From Halosimplex salinum (GTDB taxonomy: Archaea > Halobacteriota > Halobacteria > Halobacteriales > Haloarculaceae): 64,000 nucleotides of DNA. Both the position numbers and the translations under genes were made by a program. The DNA lies in contig NZ_QWGG01000006.1 of the NCBI RefSeq assembly GCF_003730195.1, positions 124,001 through 188,000 of the forward strand, given 5' to 3'. A model generated the notes under the pieces. The model made no database searches and was not told the origin of the DNA. It was given only the letters and a program-made list of their open reading frames with translations. Positions 17,151 through 25,245 of the stretch are shown here, piece by piece (within the stretch, counting starts at the first letter, position 1; every line of letters begins with the position of its first letter).

Positions 17151-18167
17151 TCACCGCAGCGCTTCCTTGCGCTCCCGTTCGGAGAGTTCGACGCCGCCGG
17201 CGACGTTCCGGCTACACCGCTCGCACTCGTGGGAGACGCCGCCGTCGTCGTACGTTCGGACCGGCGTGCCCAGCAGGAAGAAGGCGTCTTTCTGCCGTCG
17301 AGCGATGACGGCGTCGGCGCTCTCGCCGCAGTTCGGGCACCACTCCTTGTCCGGTGCGGGTTCCTGCCAGGTGATCCGGTGGCGACCGAAGACGGTGCCG
17401 TCGTGGGCCTCCTCCTTCGTGGTCTCGATGACCGCCTCGGGCGGGAGCGGGTCGGACTCGACGGCGTTGTCGAACCCGCTCTCGGCGGCGGTCGTCACCG
17501 AGACGTACGGGCCGACGCTGACGCGGTTGTCCCGGCCGACGAAGAACACGGTCACGTCCATCCCGTGCCCCTCGATACGGATCTCGTTGTTCCAGCCCGT
17601 GACGTACACCGTCAGGTCGTGCTTGGCCTCCGTGACTGTGATCTCGTTTTTCGCACCGCGGACTGAGACGCCGTCGCGCGGGTCGCGCCCCTCTCGCGTG
17701 TGGTTCCAGCCCGTGACCGAGACGTCGTAGGACTCGGGCGACCCCGTCGGCGCGGCGGCGTCGTCGTGGAACACCTGCTCGGCGCCGGCGGCGTCGAGCG
17801 CGTCGGCGGCCCCGTGCGAGACGAACACGTCGCCCACCTCCGCGACCACCACGTCGCCGTCGACGGACTCGACGTAGCCGTCTTCGAGGTCGCCCGTCAC
17901 TTCGGTGGCGACGGCGGGGTGGTCCGCCGGTGCGTCCCGGGTTTCGTCCCCGTCGTTCTGCGTTTCGCCGCCGTTCGGTGTCTCGCCGTCGGCCGACACG
18001 TCGGTGAAGACGTACTCCGCGTCGGCGAGGCGGAGCGTGCCGGCGACGCTCTCCGATCCGACGAAGACGTCTTCGGCCCCCCGGAGGCCGACCGGTGGTC
18101 GATGTGACCCGGCGAGGCGCACGTCGCCGGACAGTTCCTCGGTCGTCGCGTCCCAGCTATCGGTCAT
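17151..18167 (-). CDS. Beta-rich repeat protein with C-terminal zinc ribbon
   Basis: The 338-residue protein has no signal peptide. Residues 1-250 consist of short alternating hydrophobic strands repeated every 18-22 residues (VSVRGAKNEITVTEAKHDL, VYVTGWNNEIRIEGHG, VFFVGRDNRVSVG), suggesting a beta-solenoid like DUF3060 or bactofilin-type scaffolds. The C-terminus has CPNC and CERC, about 45 residues apart, a likely zinc ribbon. The promoter region is shared with the divergent lipoprotein gene. I do not recognise the family with certainty, and no function is proposed beyond a possible scaffold. Confidence 0.65.
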   Translation of the reverse strand: MTDSWDATTEELSGDVRLAGSHRPPVGLRGAEDVFVGSESVAGTLRLADAEYVFTDVSADGETPNGGETQNDGDETRDAPADHPAVATEVTGDLEDGYVESVDGDVVVAEVGDVFVSHGAADALDAAGAEQVFHDDAAAPTGSPESYDVSVTGWNHTREGRDPRDGVSVRGAKNEITVTEAKHDLTVYVTGWNNEIRIEGHGMDVTVFFVGRDNRVSVGPYVSVTTAAESGFDNAVESDPLPPEAVIETTKEEAHDGTVFGRHRITWQEPAPDKEWCPNCGESADAVIARRQKDAFFLLGTPVRTYDDGGVSHECERCSRNVAGGVELSERERKEALR

Positions 18168-18314
18168 TCTCTGCGTTCGAACCCCGTTACGACGCCCCTA
18201 CCACCTGTCGGTACTTCAATGATTTCAACGAGATACGGTAAGCGGGCCGAACCAGTCACTTCGGTGAAACGGTAATATAAAGTTACTTTACGGCCCCGCT
18301 ATCGGGTAGTGGAT

Positions 18315-19016
18315 ATGAAGCGTCGCAGTTTCGTACGGGGGAGTGCAGGAATGGTAGCTGGTCTCGGATTGGCGGGGTGTCTCGGTGGAAACAACTCGCC
18401 GCCCCCGCGGAAGGCGAAAGTGTTCGACGACGTGTCGCTCGACGGAACGCAGATGCAGATCCAGCTGGAGTCGGACGTCGAGGTGGAGTCGCGCCTCGAA
18501 GCACAGGACGACCTCGACGCGGGCGGAGCGGTCGGCGCCCTCCTGCCCGTCGGGAGGGCCCGCGCCGCGAAGGGCGCCGGCGCTCGCGGGGCCGGCGGGT
18601 ACTCCTCGGCGCCGAAGGGCCGCCACGGCTGGGCCGTCTGGCACGGTGGGAGCTACGGAGACGACTGGCGCGACGACCACGACGACGATATCAAGATGTA
18701 CGACGCGACCGTCGCGACGCTCGGCGTCGCCTACCTCGGGAGCGACGACAGCTACCAGAACGACCCGCCGGGCCCCGGTCCGGTCTCGTGGGACGAGAAG
18801 TGGGACGACCCGTCGGAGGGCGACGCGAAGAGCGTCGACCTCGCCGCCATCTCGCCGGGGTCGGACACCAGGGAGGGGTGGTACCGCGTCGGGACGGAGC
18901 TGGTCGCCGACGACGGGAGCAGGAACTTCGACTGGCAGGCCGCCGACTTCGAGGTCGACAACGACGTCGGGCGCTGGAACCTCGACAAAGAGTGGCACGT
19001 CAAACCCCGAGTGTGA
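18315..19016 (+). CDS. Tat-exported lipoprotein, unknown function
   Basis: The 233-residue product begins MKRRSFVRGSAG, a twin-arginine signal, followed by lipobox LAGC. It is therefore likely exported folded and lipid-anchored. The mature part is hydrophilic with a Gly/Arg/Ala-rich loop, several Trp residues (WAVWHGGSYGDDW) and no cysteine motif. A TATA box (TAATATAAAG, 18273-18282) sits at the right distance; a GTG two codons upstream could also start it. It lies 14 bases before the membrane spermidine-synthase-like gene, so the three genes to 21465 probably form one operon. Confidence 0.75.
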   Translation: MKRRSFVRGSAGMVAGLGLAGCLGGNNSPPPRKAKVFDDVSLDGTQMQIQLESDVEVESRLEAQDDLDAGGAVGALLPVGRARAAKGAGARGAGGYSSAPKGRHGWAVWHGGSYGDDWRDDHDDDIKMYDATVATLGVAYLGSDDSYQNDPPGPGPVSWDEKWDDPSEGDAKSVDLAAISPGSDTREGWYRVGTELVADDGSRNFDWQAADFEVDNDVGRWNLDKEWHVKPRV

Positions 19017-19030
19017 CCCCGTAAGCGCCG

Positions 19031-20890
19031 ATGGACCGCGACAGCGACGACGCCGCCGGGGGCGACGGCGACTCGCCCGGACGCCCGGACGGGCCGTCCC
19101 GCCCGTCGACCAGCCCCTCCGGCGAGCAGACGCTGTCGCCGTCGCGAGCGGTCGTCACCGACCGCCGCGTGATGCTCGGCCTCACCTTCGTCGTCGCCTT
19201 CTGCTCGATCGCGTACGAACTCGTCTACTCGGAGCTACTGACGGTGTTCTACGGCGGCACCGTCCTCCGCTACTCGATCACCATCGGTCTGTACCTCTTC
19301 TCGATGGGGATCGGCGCCTTCCTCTCGGCGCACCTGGCCGACCCGGAGTCGAACTTCCTGCGGACCGAGGTGTACCTCGCGTTCGTCGGCCCGGCCGGCG
19401 CCGCCTTCGTCGTCGCGCTGAACTCCTTCCCGGACGTGGTCTTCCCGCTGAAAGGGCCGGTGACGCTCGCGCTCGCCCACGGGCCGATCCTGCTGGTCGG
19501 CCTCCTCTCCGGGTTCGAGATCCCGCTGCTCAACGACCTCGTCGACCACCGCGAGGAGACGCTGTTCGCCGCGCTCGGTCGCGCCTACCCCCGGGCAGTC
19601 CTCCGGCGCGTCCTCGGCGTCTTCTTCAGCACGTCCGAGGCGGAGGGGCGCTCGTTCTCGGAGGTGCTCGGCGTCGACTACCTCGGAAGCCTCGCCGGGA
19701 CGGTCGTGTACGCGCTGGTGCTGTACCCGACCTACGGGCTGGTCGTCACCGTCCTCGTGCTCGGACTGCTGAACGCGGTCGCGGCGCTCGTGTTCGCCGG
19801 CTGGTCCGCCCGGGCGCCGGCACGCCTCGGCGCCGGCCGGTCGCTCTCGCTCGCGCGCTGGCGCGGCGTCGTCCTCGCCGGTTTGCTGCTGACGGGCACG
19901 TACGGCGGACTGGTCGCCAACGCCGGCGCGGTCGACCGCGCGGTCACCGGCGCCTACATGGGCGACCAGATCGAGAGCGAGTTCGAAGGCGTCTCGCAGC
20001 CGGACCGCGCGGAGATCGCGGTCGAGTCGTTCGAGCGGACGGCCTACCAGCGGATCACGACCTACGAGCGAAACGTCACGGGGCACGCGGGGACCGAGAC
20101 GTGTCTCCGGCTGGACCGGGCGGTCCAGCTGTGCGACAGCTGGGTCGACTCCTATCACAGCGGGCTCGTCGACGTGCCGGTCTCGGCGTACCTGAACGAG
20201 TCGGGCGCCGTCCACGGCAACGCGTCCTCGTTCGACGTGTTGCTCGTCGGTGGCGGCGACTACGTCGCCGTCGACCGGTTGCGAGACTACGGCGTCAGCG
20301 TCGACCAGGTCGACATCGACGGGGAGTTCCTCGAGTACTCGAAGGCGGAGTCGCGGTTCTCGCGGTACCACGACGACGCCTACGAGTACGACCGCCTGAA
20401 CACGACCGTCGGCGACGCCTACGCAGTCCTGCGGGGCTCCGAGAAGCGCTACGACCTGATCCTGCTCGACGTGCCGGGCGCGCGCAGCGACGACTCGCTG
20501 GCGCTGTACTCGACGGAGTTCTACACCCTCCTGCGCGAGCACCTCACCGACCGCGGCGTCGTCGCCACGTGGGCGTACTCGAAGTACCTGTTCGCCGAGC
20601 ACCACAAGGCGTACGTCAACACGCTGCGCGAGGCCGGCTTCGACCGCTACCTCTCCTACTCGGTGTACGACGACCTCGACGGGAACGGGGAGTACGAGCG
20701 TGGCGAGCGCTTCTACGTCCTCTCGGACGGCCCCCAGCCCACCCCGAACGTCTCCCGCGCCGACAGCGAATACCTCGACGGCGTCGCGGACCGCTACGGC
20801 GAGTGGGAGTGGCGCGCCGTCCCCTCCTATCGCGGCGTCGAACCGAACAGCGTCTTCGACCCCAACTACGACATCGTCGTCGACCCATGA
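19031..20890 (+). CDS. Membrane-embedded spermidine synthase-like protein
   Basis: The 619-residue protein has an acidic N-terminus and seven or more membrane segments (about 50-310), the first reading FVVAFCSIAYELVYSELL as in membrane polyamine synthases. A cytosolic Rossmann methyltransferase/aminopropyltransferase domain follows, with VLLVGGGDYVAVDRL, QVDIDGEFLEYS and YDLILLDVPGA. The aminopropyl-donor site is only partly canonical: the usual GGGDG reads GGGDY. It may use decarboxylated SAM or a related donor on a membrane-near amine. The DUF2617-like gene overlaps its stop codon, a pairing also known beside such synthases in bacteria. Confidence 0.82.
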   Translation: MDRDSDDAAGGDGDSPGRPDGPSRPSTSPSGEQTLSPSRAVVTDRRVMLGLTFVVAFCSIAYELVYSELLTVFYGGTVLRYSITIGLYLFSMGIGAFLSAHLADPESNFLRTEVYLAFVGPAGAAFVVALNSFPDVVFPLKGPVTLALAHGPILLVGLLSGFEIPLLNDLVDHREETLFAALGRAYPRAVLRRVLGVFFSTSEAEGRSFSEVLGVDYLGSLAGTVVYALVLYPTYGLVVTVLVLGLLNAVAALVFAGWSARAPARLGAGRSLSLARWRGVVLAGLLLTGTYGGLVANAGAVDRAVTGAYMGDQIESEFEGVSQPDRAEIAVESFERTAYQRITTYERNVTGHAGTETCLRLDRAVQLCDSWVDSYHSGLVDVPVSAYLNESGAVHGNASSFDVLLVGGGDYVAVDRLRDYGVSVDQVDIDGEFLEYSKAESRFSRYHDDAYEYDRLNTTVGDAYAVLRGSEKRYDLILLDVPGARSDDSLALYSTEFYTLLREHLTDRGVVATWAYSKYLFAEHHKAYVNTLREAGFDRYLSYSVYDDLDGNGEYERGERFYVLSDGPQPTPNVSRADSEYLDGVADRYGEWEWRAVPSYRGVEPNSVFDPNYDIVVDP

Positions 20891-21465
20891 CCGACAAACA
20901 CACCCTCCACTTCGTCCACAGCACCGGCCCGCCGACCAGCGACGTGCGCGTCTTCGACTCGCTCACCCGCGACTTCCTCGGCGCCGAGTTCACCTTCCGG
21001 GTGATCGGGAGCTCGCACTACGTCAGCGCGCCGGCGTACGGCTTCCACGAACTCTCCTCGTGCGAACCGGTCGCCGGCGACGACGTGACGGCCGTCGCGC
21101 TGGACGCCGGCCCGACTCCCTCGCCCGCCGCGAACGGCGACGCTCCGCTCCGCATCGACTACGAGACCGAGCGCCTGCGCTGTGCGACGATCGTCGACCG
21201 GCGACCGCTGTCGGCGTTCCCCGACGAGGAGCCGTTCGACCTGTGCTACCGGTTCGACGAGGACGCCGTCACCACGGTCGACGTCGGCGCCCGCGGCTAC
21301 GAGACGTACCACACCTACCCCGAGTTCGACCTCGCGCTGTACACGCGGACGACGTTCGAACGCGTCCCCGCGGCGACGGCCGAGGACGACGCCTCCGCGA
21401 AGCGTCGTGGCGTCGCGGGCGGCGTCCGGCCGCCCGACAAGTCGGCGCCCTCGTCGACGGACTGA
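20887..21465 (+). CDS. DUF2617-like protein paired with the synthase
   Basis: The 192-residue soluble protein has no signal or membrane segment. Its ATG overlaps the preceding stop (ATGA), so translation is coupled. It has regular hydrophobic strands (HTLHFVHST, FTFRVIGSSHYV, RYETYHTYPEFDLALYTRT-like) and a disordered tail. Size and context next to a membrane spermidine synthase agree with DUF2617, a family I recall from the same neighbourhood in actinobacteria. The biochemical role is unknown. Confidence 0.62.
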   Translation: MTDKHTLHFVHSTGPPTSDVRVFDSLTRDFLGAEFTFRVIGSSHYVSAPAYGFHELSSCEPVAGDDVTAVALDAGPTPSPAANGDAPLRIDYETERLRCATIVDRRPLSAFPDEEPFDLCYRFDEDAVTTVDVGARGYETYHTYPEFDLALYTRTTFERVPAATAEDDASAKRRGVAGGVRPPDKSAPSSTD

Positions 21466-21536
21466 GCGCCCGGACCGCCTCTCTGTGACGACGCTCGGCC
21501 CGTACTGCCGCGTTCTGGCGTCGGGATTCAGCAGTA

Positions 21537-21544
21537 CTTTTATA
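21537..21544 (+). promoter_or_regulatory. TATA box of the pentapeptide/K+ channel gene
   Basis: TTTTATAT is centred about 29 bases before the ATG at 21570, the spacing expected when transcription starts at or next to the initiation codon (leaderless mRNA), which is common in haloarchaea. Confidence 0.6.
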
Positions 21545-21569
21545 TCGAGCGGTTGCCCTTGGAGACGAT

Positions 21570-23738
21570 ATGACAGATGGGATGCATGGGGGTGCGGGCG
21601 GTGCGGAGGTCGAGCCGTTCGACGCGGCGGGGCCGCTCGCGGACGTCGACGTGTCCGTGTTGCACCTGTCGCCGGCGGAACGCGAGGAGCGGGGGGTCGA
21701 CGACGACGAGGTCCGCGAGGCGTTCCTCGCGGTCGCGCGCCACGGCGACGCCGACCAGAAGGACCTGCGCGGGGTGACGCTTCCCGCGATCGAACTCGAC
21801 CGGCGGACGCTCGAAGGGGTCGACAGACACCCGATCGACCTGCGGAACGCGACGGTACAGTCGCTCTCGGCGACGTTCGCGACGATTCGCCTGCCGATCC
21901 GACTCGACGGTGCGACGCTGGGCGACGTGACCTTCGAGGAGGCGCAGGTGGAGGAAGCGCTGCTCGCCGACGGGGCGACTGTCACGGGCGAGTTCGACGC
22001 CTTCGAGGCCCACTTCGCGGGCGACGTGGAGTTCGAGGGCGCGACCTTCGAGGGGCGCTTCGACGTCGACGAGGCGGTGTTCGACAACGACGTGAGCTTC
22101 GACGGCGCGACATTCCGCGGGGTCGTCGAGGCCCGCGCGGCCGAGTTCTACGGCGACTCGAACCTCCTCGACGACAACACGAGTTTCACGGGCGCGGCCT
22201 TCGAGGCGGGGGCGGACTTCCGGCAGGCCGAGTTCGGCTTCACTCACTTCGAGCGGGCGACCTTCGCGGACGAGGCGACGTTCCGGGAGGCCGTCTTCGA
22301 CGGGGACGCCGAGTTCGACGAGGCGCGCTTCGAGGCGCTCGCCGACTTCGACGAGGCGCGCTTCGACGGCGACACCGGGTTCGCAGACGTGGCGTTCCGC
22401 GGCGACGCGGACTTCCGCGGGGCGACCTTCTCCGGGCGCGAGCGCGCGCTCGACGACGACGTGACGTTCGCCCGGTCGACGTTCGCCGGCGAGGCGGCGT
22501 TCCAGCACGCCCAGTTCCGGTACGTCTCCTTCGAGGCGGTCCGGTTCGCGAGTCGGGCCCACTTCGAGAACGCGAGGTTCACGGCCGACGCGGACTTCCC
22601 GGACGCTCGCTTCGAGGGCGAGGCCGACTTCGACGAGGCGCGCTTCCACGAGGACGCGGACTTCTCGGCGACGGAGTTCGCCGAGCGGTGCGTGTTCCGC
22701 GGCGCGGAGTTCACCGGTGGCGCCAACTTCCTCGAGGACGACCTGACGTTCGCGGGCGCGCACTTCGGCGCCGACGCGGACTTCCACAACGTCGAGATCA
22801 CGTCGGCGAACTTCGAGGACACCTCCTTCGGCGGGCAGATCGACTTCAGCGGCGCGGTGTTCACCGACCGCATCGACTTCGAGGCGACGCAGGTCGCCGA
22901 GGACGCCTTCGTCGACTTCACCCGCGCGAAGATCCGGAGCGGTCGCATCTCACAGCCCGCCGAACGGTGGGTGCGCTACGACCTCACCCTCGCTAGCCTC
23001 GGCGACGTGGAACTCGCAGCGCGGACCGACGAGGACTACCGCCGACTGCTCGATTTCTTCCGCTTCTGCCGGACGGAGTTCACCGAGTTCGACGGCCACG
23101 AATTCGACTTCAGCGCCCACCGCCAGTACCTCGACCGCAACGCCTGGGCCATCCACGAGTTCCACGAACCGCCCGGCGCCGACCCGGACTACGCCCTGGA
23201 GATGACCCCCGAGGTGATCGAGACGACGTACCTGAAGGCCAAGCAGAGCGCCGCGGCGGTCGGCGACATGAAGGTCGCCGGCGAGTTCCGCGTCAAGCGC
23301 CAGCAGTACAGCCGCAAGGAGAACCTCTCTGTCGTCCGCGACTCCACGGCGCCGCTGTGGACCCGCGTGAAGAACCTCGGCCGCGCCACCGAGAACTACT
23401 TCCTCGGCATCACCTGCGGGCACGGGATGCGCCCCATCCGGATCGGCTTCTCCTTCCTCCTCGCGCCGCTCCTGTACGTGCCCCTGTACGCCTTCGGCGG
23501 GTCGCTGTTCGAGACGCAGGCCGGCCAGATCCCGGTGGGTGAGGCGCTCACGAGCGGCGGACTGGAGACGCTGTTCGAGGTCGCCCGCTTCAGCTACATC
23601 TCCTACACGACTATCGGGTACGGGTTCATCGGGCCGGTCGGCCCGGCCGCCGAGGTCGCGGCCGCAAGCGAGGCGTATCTCGGCGTCGTCCTCTCGGCGC
23701 TGCTCGTCTACGCGCTCGTCAAGCGCTCGGAGATGTAG
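21570..23738 (+). CDS. Pentapeptide-repeat protein fused to a two-helix K+ channel
   Basis: The 722-residue fusion has two clear parts. Residues of about 120-460 hold more than 30 pentapeptide-type repeats (ADFxxAxF, FxGATF, AxFDEARF), which should form a right-handed quadrilateral beta helix. After an alpha-helical linker come two membrane segments flanking a pore loop, with selectivity filter TIGYG at 681-685, as in KcsA-type channels. The start of the membrane part is RIGFSFLLAPLLYVPLYAFGG. The protein should be a tetrameric potassium channel with large cytosolic beta-helix domains that may gate or cluster it. No RCK domain is present. It is monocistronic with its own leaderless promoter. 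Confidence 0.88.
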   Translation: MTDGMHGGAGGAEVEPFDAAGPLADVDVSVLHLSPAEREERGVDDDEVREAFLAVARHGDADQKDLRGVTLPAIELDRRTLEGVDRHPIDLRNATVQSLSATFATIRLPIRLDGATLGDVTFEEAQVEEALLADGATVTGEFDAFEAHFAGDVEFEGATFEGRFDVDEAVFDNDVSFDGATFRGVVEARAAEFYGDSNLLDDNTSFTGAAFEAGADFRQAEFGFTHFERATFADEATFREAVFDGDAEFDEARFEALADFDEARFDGDTGFADVAFRGDADFRGATFSGRERALDDDVTFARSTFAGEAAFQHAQFRYVSFEAVRFASRAHFENARFTADADFPDARFEGEADFDEARFHEDADFSATEFAERCVFRGAEFTGGANFLEDDLTFAGAHFGADADFHNVEITSANFEDTSFGGQIDFSGAVFTDRIDFEATQVAEDAFVDFTRAKIRSGRISQPAERWVRYDLTLASLGDVELAARTDEDYRRLLDFFRFCRTEFTEFDGHEFDFSAHRQYLDRNAWAIHEFHEPPGADPDYALEMTPEVIETTYLKAKQSAAAVGDMKVAGEFRVKRQQYSRKENLSVVRDSTAPLWTRVKNLGRATENYFLGITCGHGMRPIRIGFSFLLAPLLYVPLYAFGGSLFETQAGQIPVGEALTSGGLETLFEVARFSYISYTTIGYGFIGPVGPAAEVAAASEAYLGVVLSALLVYALVKRSEM

Positions 23739-24053: not shown

Positions 24054-24428
24054 ATGAGTCAGCACGACGAGAACCCACCGCCGGGCGAACCGGGGGACGA
24101 CGCCGTGACGTGTTGTTCGCCCGTCGACCGCAGTCTGACCGAAGCGGACGTCGCGGCGGACGTGCAGACGCTCGCGACGCTCGGGAACGACACGCGGTAC
24201 GAGGCGCTCCGACTGATCGCCGACGCCGAGGACGGCGTCTGCGTCTGCGAACTCGAACCGGTTCTCGGCGTGAGTCAGGGGGCCGTCAGCCAGGCGCTCT
24301 CGCGGTTGTTCAGCGCCGGACTGGTCGACAGGCGGAAAGAGGGGCGATGGCGATACTACTCGGCGACCGCCCGGGCGCGCCGACTGCTGGCGGTCCTCGA
24401 CGAGACCAGGGAGGAGCGCGATGACTGA
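24054..24428 (+). CDS. arsR: ArsR-family metalloregulator
   Basis: The 124-residue winged-helix repressor carries the metal-sensing motif GVCVCELEPVLGVSQGAVSQ, with paired Cys at the start of the recognition-helix region as in arsenic/antimony sensors (ELCVCDL box). An extra CC pair lies at residues 20-21. It should repress at the dyads just upstream and release DNA when As(III) binds. It overlaps the methyltransferase gene by 8 bases, making an autoregulated arsenic operon. Confidence 0.9.
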   Translation: MSQHDENPPPGEPGDDAVTCCSPVDRSLTEADVAADVQTLATLGNDTRYEALRLIADAEDGVCVCELEPVLGVSQGAVSQALSRLFSAGLVDRRKEGRWRYYSATARARRLLAVLDETREERDD

Positions 24429-25245
24429 CGACGCCACCACCGACGGGGAGGCGGACGGGCTCGACCCGAGCGACCAGCGCGCCGCCGTCCGCGACCGGTA
24501 CGGGTCCATCACCACCGAGTCGCCGTCGGACTCGTGCTGTGACACCTCCTGTAGCGACGAAACCACGGCGGAGGCCGACAGGCTCGGCTACTCGGACGAG
24601 GACGTGGCGACCGTCGATCCGGACGCGTACTTGGGGCTCGGCTGCGGCAACCCGACCGCTATCGCCGAGCTGAACCGGGGCGAGGACGTCCTCGACCTGG
24701 GCTCCGGCGGCGGGTTCGACTGCTTCCTCGCCGCGCAGGCGGTCGGCGACGACGGCCGGGTCGTCGGCGTCGACATGACGCCCGAGATGGTCGAACGGGC
24801 CCGGGAGACCGCCGAGACGACCGACGCCTCGAACGTCGAGTTCCGACTCGGGGAGATCGAACACCTGCCGGTGCCCGACGAGTCGGTCGACGTGATCCTC
24901 TCGAACTGCGTCGTCAACCTCTCGCCGGACAAGCCACAGGTGTTCCGCGAGGCCTACCGCGTCCTCCGTCCGGGCGGTCGGCTCGCGGTCTCCGACGTCG
25001 TGCTGACGGCCGACCTCCCGGTCGATCTGGCGGCCGATCCCGACTCCGTCGCGGCCTGCGTCGGCGGCGCATCGACCGTCGAAGAGATCGAGGCGATGGC
25101 GACCGACGCCGGGTTCGTCGACGTCGCGATCGAACCGGACGACGACAGCGAGGCGTTCATCCGCGAGTGGGACGACGAGCGCGACCTGAGCGACTACGTC
25201 GTCGCAGCGACGATCGAAGGGACCAGACCGGACGCCGCGCACTGA
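24421..25245 (+). CDS. arsM: Arsenite S-adenosylmethionine methyltransferase
   Basis: The 274-residue protein shows SAM-binding motif I VLDLGSGGGFDCFLA, motif II VVGVDMTPEM and the ArsM hallmark ILSNCVVNLSPDK. The arsenic-binding cysteines appear as the CC and TSC pairs near residues 39-44, the Cys in SNCVVNL and the Cys in AACVGGA. It methylates As(III) stepwise to volatile or less retained methylarsines. Overlap with arsR and a shared promoter support the assignment. Confidence 0.93.
   Translation: MTDDATTDGEADGLDPSDQRAAVRDRYGSITTESPSDSCCDTSCSDETTAEADRLGYSDEDVATVDPDAYLGLGCGNPTAIAELNRGEDVLDLGSGGGFDCFLAAQAVGDDGRVVGVDMTPEMVERARETAETTDASNVEFRLGEIEHLPVPDESVDVILSNCVVNLSPDKPQVFREAYRVLRPGGRLAVSDVVLTADLPVDLAADPDSVAACVGGASTVEEIEAMATDAGFVDVAIEPDDDSEAFIREWDDERDLSDYVVAATIEGTRPDAAH

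Follow-up and report, generated by a model that had tools for sequence, protein, structure and literature searches.

Within the window (the whole 64,000-nucleotide stretch of Halosimplex salinum DNA that was analysed), a 722-residue protein joins a long pentapeptide beta-helix to a two-helix potassium-channel pore, and its gene is accompanied by four others, encoding a membrane spermidine-synthase-like (SpeE) protein, a DUF2617 protein, a TAT-type lipoprotein and a DUF3060/zinc-ribbon protein. All five lie at 17151-23738 of the window (Table 1). We give an even chance to the reading that the protein forms a tetrameric K+ channel and that a product or a partner from this five-gene module gates it through the cytosolic beta-helix. 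The preliminary description of this DNA was right about the architecture and the filter and missed the tight partnership of the five genes.

Table 1. The channel gene, its parts and its module partners, in positions of the window
Feature	Position	Strand	Basis
DUF3060 beta-rich protein, C-terminal CxxC pairs (zinc-ribbon-like), module partner	17151..18167	-	
TAT-type lipoprotein (RRSF..., GCLGG), module partner	18309..19016	+	weak TAT_signal match
Membrane spermidine-synthase-like (SpeE) protein, GGGDY and DVPG, module partner	19031..20890	+	
DUF2617 protein, 4-base overlap with SpeE stop codon	20887..21465	+	Pfam 23.4 bits, cut-off 22.3
TATA-like box TTTATAT, 25-31 nt 5' of channel ATG	21539..21545	+	sequence
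Pentapeptide beta-helix/K+-channel fusion, 722 aa	21570..23738	+	ORF, Pfam, AlphaFold2
N-terminal helical cap, residues 23-60	21636..21749	+	AlphaFold2
Beta-helix, residues 62-484, built of 11-residue (5+6) repeats; net charge -57	21753..23021	+	Pfam, AlphaFold2, repeat analysis
Super-repeat loop 1, FYGDSNLLDDNTSF, residues 193-206; D202, F206 invariant in 31	22146..22187	+	
Super-repeat loop 2, residues 287-300; G289, D297 invariant in 31	22428..22469	+	
Super-repeat loop 3, residues 381-394; F381, G383, F394 invariant in 31	22710..22751	+	
Conserved helical linker, about residues 488-619	23031..23426	+	alignment, AlphaFold2
TM1, residues 621-642	23430..23495	+	AlphaFold2, hydropathy
Pore helix (residues 662-680) and selectivity filter	23553..23624	+	sequence, AlphaFold2, alignment
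Filter TIGYG, residues 681-685	23610-23624	+	sequence
TM2, residues 692-721, reaching C-terminus	23643..23732	+	AlphaFold2, hydropathy

Pfam matches Pentapeptide_3 (PF13576) to the channel ORF in eight stretches (E 5.6e-48) and Ion_trans_2 (PF07885) to residues 667-718 (E 1.3e-4). The latter match, at 22.2 bits, is slightly below the curated cut-off of 22.5, which a Haloferax-type homologue (L033) clearly exceeds with 37.9 bits, and the short relatives in the host genome score 45-47 bits. By hydropathy only two segments are hydrophobic, at about 621-644 and 692-721, around the sequence SYISYTTIGYG. An AlphaFold2 model built from 31 sequences (mean pLDDT 88, pTM 0.76) places a helical cap at residues 28-58, then the long beta-helix, linker helices at 488-616 and the 2TM pore. 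The fusion of a beta-helix to a two-helix pore with TIGYG, as first described, is borne out by the ORF, Pfam, hydropathy and AlphaFold2 alike, and the C-terminal segment, on whose membrane insertion that description turned, does look membrane-inserted. It had also held that RCK domains and voltage sensors are absent, and no such family matches the channel ORF in Pfam up to E 1. The TATA-like box in front of the channel gene suggests a promoter of its own and a leaderless transcript. Directly downstream, at 24054-25245 of the window, are an ArsR-type regulator and then a methyltransferase-like ORF, which we take to resemble arsenite methyltransferases.

The 423 residues of the beta-helix amount to well over 30 five-residue steps, in agreement with the more than 30 pentapeptide repeats counted earlier, and a unit of 11 residues, with F spaced by 5 and then 6, describes the repeat better than plain pentapeptides do. 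These units are organized in a super-repeat of 94 residues, with a value of 0.85 at lag 94 versus a maximum of 0.13 among 500 shuffles of the units; in the family mean the value at lag 94 is 0.70, the next best being 0.26 at lag 188. The three loops that mark the super-repeat share the pattern G..L.DD. If a coil takes about 22 residues, 94 residues would make about four coils and one loop, which would place the three loops on one face of the helix, four coils apart. The loops are candidate sites for a ligand or a partner.

Among the 31 aligned sequences (the window protein included, identity at least 38%), the filter reads TIGYG in 27, TVGYG in three and TIAYG in one; the preliminary description's intact filter, as T[IV]GYG, is thus kept in 30 of 31. 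S675, Y676, T681, Y684 and G685 are invariant in this set, as are C500, C616 and several linker residues. The TIAYG sequence (L022) comes from G191, also one of the three genomes in which a close channel occurs and the module does not. Homologues with a lost filter, which had been named as a point against a channel, are this one sequence and three distant tandem paralogues; the close family keeps the filter. The distant relatives are giants (up to 1135-1344 residues), paired in three other haloarchaeal genomes (L116:399-3803 and L116:4574-8605; L117:3862-6069 and L117:7346-8437; L115:7617-9566 and L115:2750-3208), with a UPF0114 gene between the two in L116. One member keeps TLGYG and in its partner TLEYV replaces the filter, an arrangement suggestive of a heteromeric channel in which one subunit has a silent filter. 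Some long channels (L025, L026, L027, L028, L030, L031, L002 and L032) have an N-terminal CPH...C.FH motif, apparently a metal site, which is absent from the window protein.

The fusion is not unique. The host genome holds four beta-helix/channel fusions, namely the window protein, a paralogue of 725 residues at 41% identity and two short proteins (354 and 350 residues), and public records contain many proteins of the same make, named 'pentapeptide repeat-containing' or 'potassium channel family'. The C-terminal 262 residues are matched at E <= 1e-3 in 150 of 292 halobacterial genomes, and the nearest named relatives, from Halosimplex species, are 92%, 86% and 80% identical over the C-terminal part. 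A pattern scan of the genome contigs returned 55 loci in haloarchaea and, in alphaproteobacteria, 15 that encode a channel only; these 15 (L090-L104, from Ruegeria and one alphaproteobacterial MAG) have short channels lacking repeats and were set aside. At each of three loci checked (L121:5897-6958, L122:5449-6498 and L120:3283-4425, the last with the filter TLGLG), the short relative, of 350-381 residues, has a Na+/H+ exchanger gene (PF00999) beside it. In Haladaptatus halobius the channel (L067:4295-5477) is split into two broken frames with no module nearby, and may be a pseudogene.

The five genes almost always occur together. Across the 292 genomes, which are related and not independent, the SpeE-like gene occurs in 43 and DUF2617 in the identical 43. 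A DUF3060-like gene is present in all 43 (five of these matches are weak: G041, G059, G114, G168 and G282, E 9e-19 to 6e-14) and in ten more, one strong (G259, 2e-70) and nine at E 8.7e-12 to 8.7e-6. The lipoprotein is likewise found in 43 of 43 and in three more (G230 strong, 5.6e-41; G220 and G274 weak). The channel, counted by its C-terminal part at E <= 1.5e-49, a cut-off placed post hoc where the E values jump from 1.5e-49 to 1.5e-41, is present in all 43 SpeE genomes and in 3 of the 249 others (G050, G053 and G191, or 3 of 46 genomes with a close channel). Relaxing the cut-off to E <= 1e-20 admits further paralogues and raises the count to about 66 genomes. Fisher's test of SpeE versus channel gives 2e-48 with genomes treated without kinship correction, and the within-genus chance product over the 11 genera holding both kinds of genome, which covers only genomes with a stated genus, is 5e-11. 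The module is seen in 20 of 77 genera and is sometimes plasmid-borne. Lone genes that may be remnants also occur, a DUF3060-like gene at G259:C9:262099-263034 and a lipoprotein gene at G230:C19:78300-78938.

Clustering accompanies this co-occurrence. Channel and SpeE are less than 10 kb apart in 40 of the 43 genomes, sharing a strand in 35 and lying on opposite strands in five, which implies that the link survives rearrangement. In the remaining three, one pair lies at opposite ends of one contig and two pairs are on separate contigs. Haloferax larsenii carries both genes on plasmid pHl5678-1, about 162 kb apart, and plasmid pHH126 of Haloarcula hispanica has, in a row, a hypothetical gene in the lipoprotein's place, spermidine synthase, DUF2617, a second hypothetical gene where the DUF3060 one would stand, and the pentapeptide channel. 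In a table of neighbours for the 55 loci, made with 5 kb flanks and an ORF picker that misses genes, SpeE is near 41, DUF2617 near 34, DUF3060 near 34 and the lipoprotein near 18.

The SpeE-like partner has a membrane N-terminus. Of its 42 sequences (41 loci plus the window), 41 show GGGD[WY], the exception being L036, where the search caught an earlier, unrelated GGAD, and all 42 show D[VIL]PG. Classical spermidine synthases have DxxD in the place of D[VIL]PG. Pfam AdoMet_dc has one match in the window's genome, which may be archaeal arginine decarboxylase, a member of the same superfamily. According to the accessible text of PMC5178350, Haloferax volcanii has two SpeE homologues with seven TM segments and no putrescine-binding residues, and makes agmatine and cadaverine; its authors report spermidine and AdoMet decarboxylase to be absent, found no phenotype on deletion of HVO_B0357 under the conditions tested, and pose the role of these homologues as a question. 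A transposon in the other homologue, HVO_0255, accompanied hypochlorite tolerance, as stated in the portion available of PMC6267482. From its motif we infer that HVO_B0357 is the module-type SpeE: the GGGD(W/Y) given in the same portion of PMC6267482 is shared by the Haloferax loci here, and H. volcanii has a DUF2617 match.

DUF2617 itself is predicted, in the accessible part of PMC11237479, to be a beta-sandwich enzyme that conserves two histidines; the DUF2617 family of the window keeps H43 and H141. The same part reports bacterial operons of the polyamine/phage-shock kind, in which PspA or DUF4247-DUF2617 is combined with polyamine genes, DUF350 and a K+ channel that senses ligands inside the cell, and on that account the haloarchaeal module looks like their archaeal counterpart. 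DUF350 is absent from the window's genome, PspA is absent from the cluster with two copies elsewhere in that genome, and a profile search gave no match of DUF4247 to the module lipoprotein. A Novosphingobium plasmid (L112:2583-9432) carries, in a row, SPFH, two DUF4178, DUF350, aminopropyltransferase, FAD oxidoreductase and speD genes, and is a bacterial cousin of the module without the channel. A literature search by title and start of abstract, with most subscription papers outside its coverage, found nothing that links a haloarchaeal pentapeptide channel with SpeE or DUF2617. A known plan, the HalA-like pentapeptide channel, meets a known kind of operon, that of polyamine-linked envelope stress, in a combination that we did not find described.

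Tan et al. 2025 reportedly describe HalA as the ion-channel effector of Hailong anti-phage defence. In our comparisons it is the closest solved structure to the modelled linker plus pore. The HalA chain 9nyi_A, in complex with oligodeoxyadenylate, aligns with 196 of the 237 residues of this model (rmsd 5.1) at Z 8.8, a range in which helical matches (under about 13) can reflect mere common arrangement; among the matches listed, the others align over 77-101 residues. Foldseek gives HalA a probability of 0.93 and a TMq of 0.43, with the rest of the best 50 at 0.20-0.30; at E <= 0.001 it returned no match for the whole model or the C-terminal model. The VIA values were computed on Foldseek's own candidates. 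Many K+ channels match the linker-plus-pore model over about 90 residues at Z about 9, and a profile search, too, matches the pore to KirBac and other K+ channels. Membership in the HalA family (NCBIfam NF051894) and in Hailong was rejected on two grounds: the window protein scores 8.7 bits (E 0.89) versus a cut-off of 250, and no HalB nucleotidyltransferase is among the window neighbours (lipoprotein, SpeE-like, DUF2617, DUF3060, ArsR and methyltransferase-like ORFs). On the short relative L003 the HalA profile scores 18.2 bits over the pentapeptide part, which agrees with the pentapeptide domain of HalA. The available portion of PMC13275509 presents HalA as a channel blocked by the poly-dA adducts of HalB.

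Starting from what is observed, namely the architecture, the conserved filter, the super-repeat, a linker and pore that resemble those of HalA in fold, and genes that co-occur and cluster, we infer conductance, ligand and physiology as follows. Four 2TM pores would form a K+-selective homotetramer, from which four rod-like beta-helices would hang into the cytosol via the helical linker, and the channel would serve as the ion-conducting arm of the module. At rest, by analogy with HalA, beta-helix and linker would keep the pore shut. A product of the SpeE-like and DUF2617 proteins, or a module protein, may then bind the beta-helix, perhaps at the three equally spaced G..L.DD loops, and set the open probability. 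Flow of K+ through TIGYG would alter membrane potential or K+ content during envelope or osmotic stress, as the bacterial operons suggest. The preliminary description had the beta-helix as a gating or tethering element; this is plausible, HalA offering a precedent by analogy. Counting against the module-gated reading are the three close channels without the module, the post hoc channel cut-off, the relatedness of the genomes and the silent deletion of HVO_B0357 under the conditions tested (in the accessible text of PMC5178350). More specifically, SpeE and DUF2617 could make a small signal, other than a nucleic acid, that gates the HalA-like channel as an envelope-stress or immunity valve, and the Hailong principle would then have a second, independent instance; this we consider rather unlikely.

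Also rather unlikely is a plain K+ or osmotic channel, in which the beta-helix would be an assembly or anchoring rod, gating would respond to ionic strength, pH or membrane tension, and the four partner genes would serve the same stress response with no contact to the channel. The two short relatives in the host genome (350 and 354 residues) and one elsewhere adjoin Na+/H+ antiporters (PF00999), which points to ion balance, and close channels do occur without the module in G050, G053 and G191. However, the subfamily shows strict five-gene co-occurrence and clustering, the former kept even where the genes are unlinked.

A guard of the HalA kind is unlikely. Here a small signal from the enzyme pair would block the channel, and a virus that removes the signal would cause K+ loss and cell death. 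Linker plus pore match HalA best, and HalA is itself blocked by HalB poly-dA adducts in the accessible text of PMC13275509; the module, moreover, has a scattered distribution, in 43 of 292 genomes and 20 of 77 genera, occurs all-or-none and is in some cases plasmid-borne (pHH126 and several others). Yet no PADLOC family matches up to E 1, the HalA profile reaches 8.7 bits versus 250, the nucleotidyltransferase is absent from the module, and known defence genes were not seen adjoining it among the neighbourhoods read, which were not a systematic set.

A polyamine made by the SpeE-like protein might instead plug the pore from inside, as in Kir channels, which seems improbable. Position 709, presumably the TM2 site four after the hinge (Kir/KcsA numbering), is A, S, G or F in 31 of 31 sequences, and E701, the only TM2-internal acid kept in most sequences, is present in 23 of 31; such a block is less likely for lack of a conserved pore acid. 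The module SpeE, for its part, has DxPG in place of the classical DxxD. Polyamine block of Kir pores is established (accessible text of PMC4145359), the partner is a SpeE and KirBac is among the best pore matches, but H. volcanii is without spermidine and AdoMet decarboxylase according to the authors of PMC5178350, in the part available. That the pore is a mere membrane anchor, with the beta-helix acting on DNA or proteins like Qnr/MfpA, is very improbable: fold matches to HetL and Qnr/MfpA, TIAYG in one family member and TLEYV in three distant tandem paralogues would fit it, but the five pore residues from S675 to G685 named above stay invariant down to 38% identity.

The module-gated reading joins the question of the orphan H. 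volcanii SpeE, posed in the accessible text of PMC5178350, to a K+ channel inherited with the GGGD[WY]-type SpeE. If the two cooperate, K+ current and membrane potential would be a concrete readout for the orphan enzyme, and cells living on molar KCl would have a new way to gate K+ flow. If true, the HalA plan would be wider than anti-phage defence.

Compared with known systems, the window protein appears to share with HalA the plan of beta-helix, linker and 2TM pore, and differs in its length (722 residues versus the 338 positions of the HalA profile), its gene neighbourhood and its very acidic beta-helix (net -57). With KirBac3.1 and KcsA it shares the 2TM pore and the TxGYG filter, whereas its cytosolic domain is an N-terminal beta-helix and a C-terminal domain is absent. 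The beta-helix itself is right-handed, like those of the soluble pentapeptide proteins HetL and Qnr/MfpA, and its fold matches are HetL (3du1, Z 20.3), designed pentapeptide solenoids and Qnr/MfpA proteins; unlike HetL and Qnr/MfpA, it is built of 11-residue units with a 94-residue super-repeat and is joined to a membrane pore. At the level of gene content, the module resembles the polyamine/phage-shock operons described in the accessible part of PMC11237479 (with either CesT/Tir-PspA or DUF2617-DUF4247), among whose variants DUF2617, a spermidine-synthase-like membrane fusion, a lipoprotein, a beta-rich intracellular protein and a K+ channel are found; those operons have DUF4178, whereas the haloarchaeal module has a pentapeptide channel and a DUF3060/zinc-ribbon protein in a strict set of five genes.
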